A DNA stretch of 33,963 nt from Bacteroidota bacterium (GTDB lineage Bacteria; Bacteroidota; Bacteroidia; Flavobacteriales; Flavobacteriaceae), in contig JAQCFO010000019.1 in NCBI GenBank assembly GCA_027619415.1, positions 1-33,963 of the forward strand, read 5' to 3'. Positions within the stretch are counted from its first letter, which is position 1. Every line of letters starts with the position of its first letter. The notes beneath the pieces are model-generated. The model ran no database searches. It was not told the origin of the DNA and saw only the letters and a program-made list of their open reading frames with translations. The position numbers were made by a program, and so were the translations under genes. Below, one piece after another: positions 1 to 33,963 of this stretch.

Positions 1-39
1 TTCTTAACGAATCTATTATTTACAAAAAAAAATTGTGCT
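1..39 (-). repeat. 39-bp exact inverted copy of an internal mutL segment (contig-end chimera)
   Basis: The reverse complement of bases 1-39 is identical, base for base, to 3455-3493 inside mutL, including the run of nine T. The match stops at base 40 and runs to the very first base of the window. In mutL the segment encodes the normal QFFFVNNRFVK stretch, so that copy is native. Here it interrupts a DUF3810 gene immediately after its conserved IPFS motif. That pattern fits a chimeric read or amplification fold-back at a contig end rather than a genomic repeat. The identity is read directly; the artefact explanation is inference. Confidence 0.9.
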
Positions 40-225
40 AGAAAATGGTATTTTTCCTATAGTGTATAAAAAAATATAGGAGCTATACTTGTATAATGAA
101 TTACTGTAATAGTTTTCAATAAAATTAGAATCAAATTTTATTAATTCTAAAAGTATTATAATTAATAAAAGAAGAAAAAGTAACAAATTTTTTCTAAAAA
201 AAGGAATATTGTTAATTTTATGCAT
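16..225 (-). CDS. DUF3810 family membrane protein, N-terminal fragment cut by the edge chimera
   Basis: Only about the first 62 codons are genuine. They encode a short basic N-terminus, one strongly hydrophobic helix (about residues 13-30) and a stretch resembling the conserved start of DUF3810 proteins of Bacteroidetes (FIENYYSNSLYKYSSYIF, then GKIPFS). In that family the IPFS motif continues with a second membrane segment. Here the frame instead enters the 39-bp mutL-derived inverse copy at base 39, adds a few foreign residues and stops at 16-18. The full gene would be several hundred residues long. ATG at 225-223 lies 12 bp after the stop of the upstream isomerase gene, so it is the third gene of a leftward operon. 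Function unknown. Family assignment is from motif memory on a short fragment. Confidence 0.6.
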   Translation of the reverse strand: MHKINNIPFFRKNLLLFLLLLIIILLELIKFDSNFIENYYSNSLYKYSSYIFLYTIGKIPFSSTIFFCK

Positions 226-2717: not shown

Positions 2718-4499
2718 ATGAGCATTATTAGGTTGCTTTCTGAAAATGTAGCAAATCAAATTGCAGCTGGAGAAGTAGTTCAAAGACCTTCATCCGTCGT
2801 TAAGGAGCTTTTAGAGAACTCAATTGACAGTGGAGCTAAATCAGTTAAACTTATTATTAAAGATGCAGGGAAATCATTAATACAGGTTGTGGATGATGGT
2901 TGTGGTATGGATAAAGCAGACTTAAATAAGTGTTTCTTGCGTCATGCTACATCTAAAATTAGAAAATCAAGTGATTTATTTAGTTTGAATACATTGGGAT
3001 TTAGGGGTGAAGCCTTATCAAGTATCTCATCTGTATCTCATATGACGATAATTTCAAATAATAATGTGCCTTTAGGAAACGAAATAAGACTTGAAGGAGG
3101 AATTTTAGTTTCTGAAAATGAAGCTGTTAGTAATTTAGGGACTTCTATTTCTGTAAAAAATCTATTTTATAATATTCCTGCTAGAAGAAATTTTTTAAAA
3201 TCTGACAATGTTGAATTAAGGCATGTTATAGATGAATTTCATAGAATAGCTTTGATAAACCACGAAATAGATTTCATATTTGTCAATAATGAAAATGAAT
3301 TATTTAACTTAAATAAATCTATTTTTAAAGAAAGAATTGTACGAATTTTTGGAAAATCTACTGAACAAAAACTAGTTCCAATTAAAGAAAATACTGATAT
3401 TGCTGTTATAGAAGGGTTTGTTTATAAGCCTGAATATTCTAAAAAAACTAAATCAGCACAATTTTTTTTTGTAAATAATAGATTCGTTAAGAATTCCCAT
3501 CTTTACCATGCAGTTAAAACAGCTTATGATGGATTGATTTATGATAACCATCATACCTCTTATTTTTTAATTGTTAAAGTCCCGCCTGATACAATTGATG
3601 TCAATATTCATCCTAATAAGACAGAAATTAAATTTGATAATGACCAGTCTATTTATGCGATATTAAAATCATCTATAAAGCACAGTTTAGGTCAGTTTAA
3701 TATTACTCCTACGATTGATTTTGAAAGTAGTGTTAATTTAAACACCCCTTATTCTTATAGGGACAAGAAAGCTTCTATGCCTAAGGTTGAATATGATACA
3801 GCTTTTAATCCCTTCAATGAACCTAAAGTGTCACCTTCTTTTTCTTCAAAAGATTTTTCGTTTGAAGGACTGGAGAATTCTTTTGAAAATTTAGAAAAAA
3901 ATTCAAATATTTTTGAAGACAATAACGATTCTATAACTTTTCCTGCTTTTCAATTGAACTTGAATTATATAATTACAAAAACTAGCGCAGGAATTGTAAT
4001 AATTGATCAAAAAAGAGCTCATCAAAGAATACTTTATGAAAAATTCTTAAATGAACTTTCATTTTTAAATAACTCAACTCAAATATTGATTTTTCCAATT
4101 AAACTCGATTTTAATAATGAGGAAAACAGAATGTTAGAATTAGTTAAAAACTCTTTAATTCATTTAGGGTTTAAATTTGATAAGTTTGATTGTGAAGGAA
4201 TTGAAATTTCGGGAATTCATCCATTTTTTGTTGAAAATCAGATTAATGCTCTTTTTCAAGAGCTTATTGATAGTCAGATTTCTGAATTTAAAAAAACCAG
4301 CCACACCATTAATGATTTTTTAGCAAAAATTCTATCTAAAAATTCTTCTTTAAAGTCAAACGTTAGATTAGAGAAAGAAGTTCAAGAATCTTTAGTCAAC
4401 GATTTATTTGCATGTAAGGATCCAAATGTGTCTCCTTTTGATAAATTAATATTTAAGGTAATTTCAACAGAAGAAATAAATAAAATGTTTTTTAAATGA
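2718..4499 (+). CDS. mutL: DNA mismatch repair protein MutL
   Basis: A 593-residue MutL, which links MutS mismatch recognition to strand removal. The N-terminal GHKL ATPase is intact: AAGEVVQRPSSVVKELLENS (Glu30 and Asn34), DDGCGM (59-64), RHATSK and TLGFRGEAL (92-100). The transducer domain follows to about residue 325, then a low-complexity linker to about 405 and a dimerisation domain. In the C-terminal domain the endonuclease signature DQHAxxExxxxE reads DQKRAHQRILYE (430-441), with Lys, Arg and Gln replacing His, Ala and the first Glu. The protein ends soon after LFACKDPNVSPFDKL with no CPHGRP motif. Nicking activity is therefore doubtful, though I cannot tell how general this is in Bacteroidetes. 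The stop overlaps the next start by 4 bp (ATGA). Confidence 0.97.
   Translation: MSIIRLLSENVANQIAAGEVVQRPSSVVKELLENSIDSGAKSVKLIIKDAGKSLIQVVDDGCGMDKADLNKCFLRHATSKIRKSSDLFSLNTLGFRGEALSSISSVSHMTIISNNNVPLGNEIRLEGGILVSENEAVSNLGTSISVKNLFYNIPARRNFLKSDNVELRHVIDEFHRIALINHEIDFIFVNNENELFNLNKSIFKERIVRIFGKSTEQKLVPIKENTDIAVIEGFVYKPEYSKKTKSAQFFFVNNRFVKNSHLYHAVKTAYDGLIYDNHHTSYFLIVKVPPDTIDVNIHPNKTEIKFDNDQSIYAILKSSIKHSLGQFNITPTIDFESSVNLNTPYSYRDKKASMPKVEYDTAFNPFNEPKVSPSFSSKDFSFEGLENSFENLEKNSNIFEDNNDSITFPAFQLNLNYIITKTSAGIVIIDQKRAHQRILYEKFLNELSFLNNSTQILIFPIKLDFNNEENRMLELVKNSLIHLGFKFDKFDCEGIEISGIHPFFVENQINALFQELIDSQISEFKKTSHTINDFLAKILSKNSSLKSNVRLEKEVQESLVNDLFACKDPNVSPFDKLIFKVISTEEINKMFFK
3455..3493 (+). repeat. 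Native copy of the 39-bp segment repeated in inverse at the left window edge
   Basis: This stretch lies within the mutL reading frame and encodes part of the conserved N-terminal region (QFFFVNNRFVKN). Its reverse complement appears exactly once more, at 1-39. Nothing in mutL is disturbed, so this is the original and the edge copy is secondary. Confidence 0.9.
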
Positions 4500-33804: not shown

Positions 33805-33963
33805 ATGAACAATTCAATACTCACTTTTATAGTTCTGTCTTTTATTTTTTTAAGTTGTGATTCGAATAAAAACAGTAGCATAGAAATAAATAAAATATTT
33901 GAAAATTATTATCAAGAAAGTTTAAAGATGTATCCGTTAAAAGCTACAAGTCAAGGTGATGTT
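33805..33963 (+). CDS. DUF885 family lipoprotein, 5' part (runs off the window)
   Basis: The first 53 codons of a gene cut by the window end. They encode a lipoprotein signal (hydrophobic stretch, then FLSC with Cys18), a short Asn/Ser linker, and FENYYQESLKMYPLKATSQGDV, matching the start of mature DUF885 proteins (yyexxLxlxPLxATxxGd). DUF885 proteins have a metallopeptidase-like HExxH fold later in the sequence; that part is not visible here. ATG 33805 is chosen since an in-frame stop occurs just upstream. The 135-base spacer before it (33670-33804) holds the divergent promoters; TACCTTTC at 33772-33779 is a near match to the -7 consensus. Confidence 0.72.
   Translation, partial: MNNSILTFIVLSFIFLSCDSNKNSSIEINKIFENYYQESLKMYPLKATSQGDV

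Follow-up and report, generated by a model that had tools for sequence, protein, structure and literature searches.

The first 39 bases of contig C29 are, with little room left for doubt, an artefact of the contig end: probably a dead end lengthened with one or several chimeric reads in which part of mutL would be joined to a gene for a DUF3810 protein. The window, by which we mean the whole stretch of 33,963 nucleotides analysed here, represents the entire contig C29 (1-33963) of its assembly, so that the contig genuinely ends at base 1. The assembly comprises 61 contigs with a total of 1.66 Mb and is 86% complete. Alignments show that, to the left of base 40, relatives carry on with the rest of the DUF3810 gene, most of which we located at one end of C7, a second contig from this assembly. 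The features on which our argument relies are the following.

1-39, minus strand: tail judged to be false, an exact reverse-complement copy of 3455-3493 without a counterpart at this place in the compared relatives
39-40, no strand: putative chimeric junction, the joined loci having no shared bases as judged from relatives
40-225, minus strand: genuine N-terminal 62 codons of the DUF3810 gene, assigned to its family via the PF12725 match of a relative's full-length protein; the rest lies on C7
2718-4499, plus strand: mutL, intact, 593 aa (PF01119, PF08676)
3455-3493, plus strand: genuine source copy, in frame within mutL

A repeat search of the window reproduced what the first-pass annotation of this DNA had reported from the letters. 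The reverse complement of bases 1-39 is identical to 3455-3493, its single other occurrence within the window, and the inverted identity ends at 39 since bases 40 and 3454 no longer correspond. Measured from base 40 to base 3455, the joined loci are 3,415 bases apart and in opposite orientation, in keeping with the earlier estimate of about 3.4 kb, and the mutL copy indeed lies in frame, within an intact MutL protein. The second-longest inverted repeat in the window has 20 bases; in 100 random first-order Markov sequences, each as long as the window, the longest inverted repeat measured 18 bases on average and at most 24. When up to two mismatches were allowed, the 39-mer was present at just these two places in the readable part of the assembly (five contigs of less than 3 kb, 13,751 bases in total, read as N and lay outside the search). 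With two copies only, at this tolerance and in this readable part, a genome repeat such as a mobile element was rejected as an explanation. A natural inverted repeat was likewise discarded because the copy is absent from all relatives compared and runs right up to base 1 of the contig. Over 33805-33963, a second gene is truncated by the right edge of the contig, judged by eye to be a lipoprotein-like start running off the edge; a flush inverted tail of at least 14 bases was looked for at this end, and none was found.

When read on the minus strand from position 225, the frame encodes the start of a DUF3810 protein up to the motif IPFS, followed by seven foreign residues and a stop codon. The gene is thus broken directly after IPFS, as had been proposed; the predicted false protein end of "eight or so" residues plus stop is borne out in its falsity, and the actual count is seven. 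On its own, the 69-residue fragment matched no Pfam family. In the closest relative, L007, the complete protein corresponds to DUF3810 across the whole profile (PF12725, E 8.4e-89). Inspection of the DUF3810 gene in related genomes, the check that the first-pass annotation had suggested, revealed it to be intact in L007, with 355 residues from the start codon and spanning the point of the break, and in L008, with 356 residues from the start codon. A strict motif search, which found the gene in three of the 13 loci tested, showed that the break point in L007, L008 and L013 lies within an uninterrupted frame of 356-360 codons, counted between stops.

A mutL scan yielded 58 loci, and eight of the closer ones were compared with the window. 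The long collinear match starts at base 40 (L007, L013) or at base 41 (L008, L009, L010, L019) in six of these eight loci, and at 102 and 104 in L014 and L018, respectively; in none of the eight does a match run through 39/40. The relative of the 39-mer resides at its mutL position in seven of the eight loci, L018 being without such a match. Against the closest relative, bases 40-59 are identical, and seven of bases 1-39 match. A search of the genus covered 22 genomes, including the window's own, and gave a match in 18. Five of the 21 other genomes (G020, G016, G002, G007, G012) align from base 40 or 41, two (G004, G017) align from 102 or 104, and ten contain short partial matches only; a match crossing the junction was found in none of the 22 genomes searched. 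The counts from the two sets are not independent, as the sets overlap: G020 is apparently the source of L007 and G016 that of L008, the letters of L008 and G016 being identical in a base-by-base comparison. The call of a chimeric contig end is thereby upheld, with relatives collinear only from base 40 or 41 and the remainder of the gene residing on C7.

The whereabouts of this remainder speak more strongly than any other finding for a false 39-base tail. We searched the window's own assembly with the DUF3810 protein of the relative and recovered residues 1-63 at C29:37-225 and residues 97-355 at C7:55485-56261, no more than 2 bases from the right end of C7 (56,263 bases); the latter segment is open and 89% identical to its counterpart in the relative. 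Residues 64-96 were not found in this search of the assembly. On C7, the DUF3810 remainder is adjoined by the gene for a 1,077-residue protein, the same neighbour as in the relative. The position of the remainder at the right end of C7, together with this shared neighbour, makes it very probable that C7 is the left neighbour of C29, across a gap of about 34 codons, which corresponds to 102 bases in the relative. The gap has a G+C content of 22%, close to the 24% of the entire gene in the relative; the lack of any unusual A+T richness is a point against the explanation that we favour, with its loss of read coverage. These data also bear on the idea that part of mutL was truly duplicated in inverted orientation into the DUF3810 gene, either in this strain or in a fraction of its cells. 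We attach only a very faint likelihood to such an event: the tail stops flush at the contig end and is without counterpart in the compared relatives, and C7 carries the remaining part of DUF3810, open and only about 102 bases away. That the assembly sampled a subset of cells carrying a real inverted mutL-DUF3810 junction, for instance from a fold-back rearrangement at replication, appears to us similarly far-fetched.

The bases at the junction inform the choice between a false path in the assembly graph and a chimeric read. After the PFS motif, L007, L008 and L013 continue with GTT or TTA, as opposed to AGC at the start of the tail, and the base preceding the tail differs from that of mutL. 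The joined loci hence seem to have zero bases in common at the junction, with the true continuation being deduced from relatives as the window's own lies in the gap. A repeat-driven mis-join, in which the assembler would have walked the graph wrongly at a common k-mer and no chimeric molecule would have existed, could draw on the observation that 39 and 69, the latter a length shared by several contig ends described below, may both belong to a series of k-mer sizes spaced ten apart. However, as DUF3810 in L007, L008 and L013 continues without a base in common with mutL at the junction, there would have been no common word by which the graph could be misread, and the other inverted tails in this assembly have 18 and 24 bases, so that 39 need not be k. 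We consequently view this mis-join as improbable, and a chimeric read or molecule would be the best source of the tail.

To place the C29 end in context, we surveyed the assembly within up to 6 kb of both ends of each contig (all of C29), 558 kb altogether; the interiors of long contigs lay outside the survey, so that distant partners could be missed. Five contigs of less than 3 kb that read as N were dropped (10 of 122 ends), leaving 112 ends on 56 contigs. A flush exact match of at least 20 bases elsewhere was present at 24 of the 112 ends, compared with 11 of 5,000 internal control positions (two of these 11 with at least 39 bases). Seven ends, on C3, C6, C13, C15, C36, C44 and C47, have exactly 69 bases in common with another place, which looks like the overlap length of the assembly. 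The 69-base end of C13 resembles a tRNA when judged by eye. The notion that 39 is itself an assembler k-mer overlap was not firmly maintained, as these seven ends have 69 bases in common but the other inverted tails have 18 and 24. Dovetail overlaps between contig ends were observed for C4L/C49L (30 bases), C9R/C50L (22 bases), C16L/C34R (20 bases) and C39R/C42R (27 bases); these pairs may be true adjacencies that were left unjoined.

Flush inverted copies of at least 16 bases within the same stretch were detected at five ends, C29L (39 bases), C47R (24), C27L (18), C33R (16) and C51L (16), against a background of 194 among 556,702 positions whose 16-mer recurs inverted within its own stretch, a count that takes in those arms. 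Besides C29L, tails of at least 18 bases occur at C27L (L093:1-18, span 353 bases) and C47R (L112:3630-3653, span 261 bases). At the C27L site, four of six relatives align, from bases 15, 16, 29 and 29 and with 67-80% identity, so that collinearity is lacking over most of the tail, in agreement with a putative false tail to within a few bases. For C51L, G020 aligns from base 17, just past the copy, and G016 and G017 from base 7, inside it. C51L, with these conflicting alignments, and C33R, for which none of the six relatives searched was usable, were left out of the chimeric count.

Collectively, our data lend themselves to the following scenario for the C29 end. Read coverage would have given out at the DUF3810 gap, and the assembler would then have lengthened the dead end using a single chimeric read or a handful of them, with the DUF3810 strand placed head to head with mutL from 3.4 kb away. 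Such reads could stem from a fold-back or template-switch molecule generated during library preparation or amplification. The extension presumably halted at 39 bases, too short for the tail to be merged into the true path through mutL, given an overlap length of apparently 69 in this assembly.

A special case of this explanation is a chimera formed during multiple displacement amplification (MDA) of a single-cell genome, in which, with phi29, a displaced 3' end re-primes on a nearby strand and an inverted join results. The first-pass annotation had offered MDA and the extension of a dead end by an assembler as alternative causes; the chimera has stood, while MDA is unproven and mildly disfavoured, and we regard it as conceivable but rather doubtful. 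An inverted join of less than 10 kb is the typical form of MDA chimeras, and here the distance is 3,415 bases; in the study PMC1855051, 406 of 475 chimeras were inverted, 337 of these with less than 10 kb between the segments. The two other contig ends with similar inverted tails, with their short spans, point in the same direction, given that the distance in MDA chimeras peaked at about 250-300 nt in one study (PMC4595205). However, the C29 junction is without shared bases when judged from relatives, whereas most MDA chimeras have complementarity of at least 2 bp: PMC1855051 gives at least two shared bases for 93.5% of the inverted chimeras below 10 kb, and PMC4595205 places the peak of the overlaps at 6. 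Moreover, inverted tails of at least 18 bases are present at just three of the 112 ends, and the shortest contig, with 2,517 bases, suggests a length cut of the kind used in metagenome binning.

In our assessment, the 39-base tail is almost certainly artefactual in origin and, a correction of the annotation aside, is devoid of biological content. Curators should trim bases 1-39 and leave the truncated DUF3810 end unannotated. The gap of about 102 bases between the two contigs, very probably neighbours, could be closed, and screening contig ends for flush inverted copies exposed another two suspect ends in this assembly.

The C29 end resembles the inverted MDA chimeras described in PMC1855051 in that opposite-strand segments less than 10 kb apart are joined with an intervening deletion, and it differs from them in that no junctional complementarity is seen. 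Judging by titles and the beginnings of abstracts, no study among the matches listed dealt directly with inverted copies flush at contig ends or with library chimeras of the fold-back type. In short-read assemblies, dead-end tips or chimeric contig ends are short, flush at the contig end and located next to a gap. The C29 tail is alike in all of these properties, being short, flush at its end and positioned beside a gap whose far side opens another contig, and no difference from such ends is apparent.
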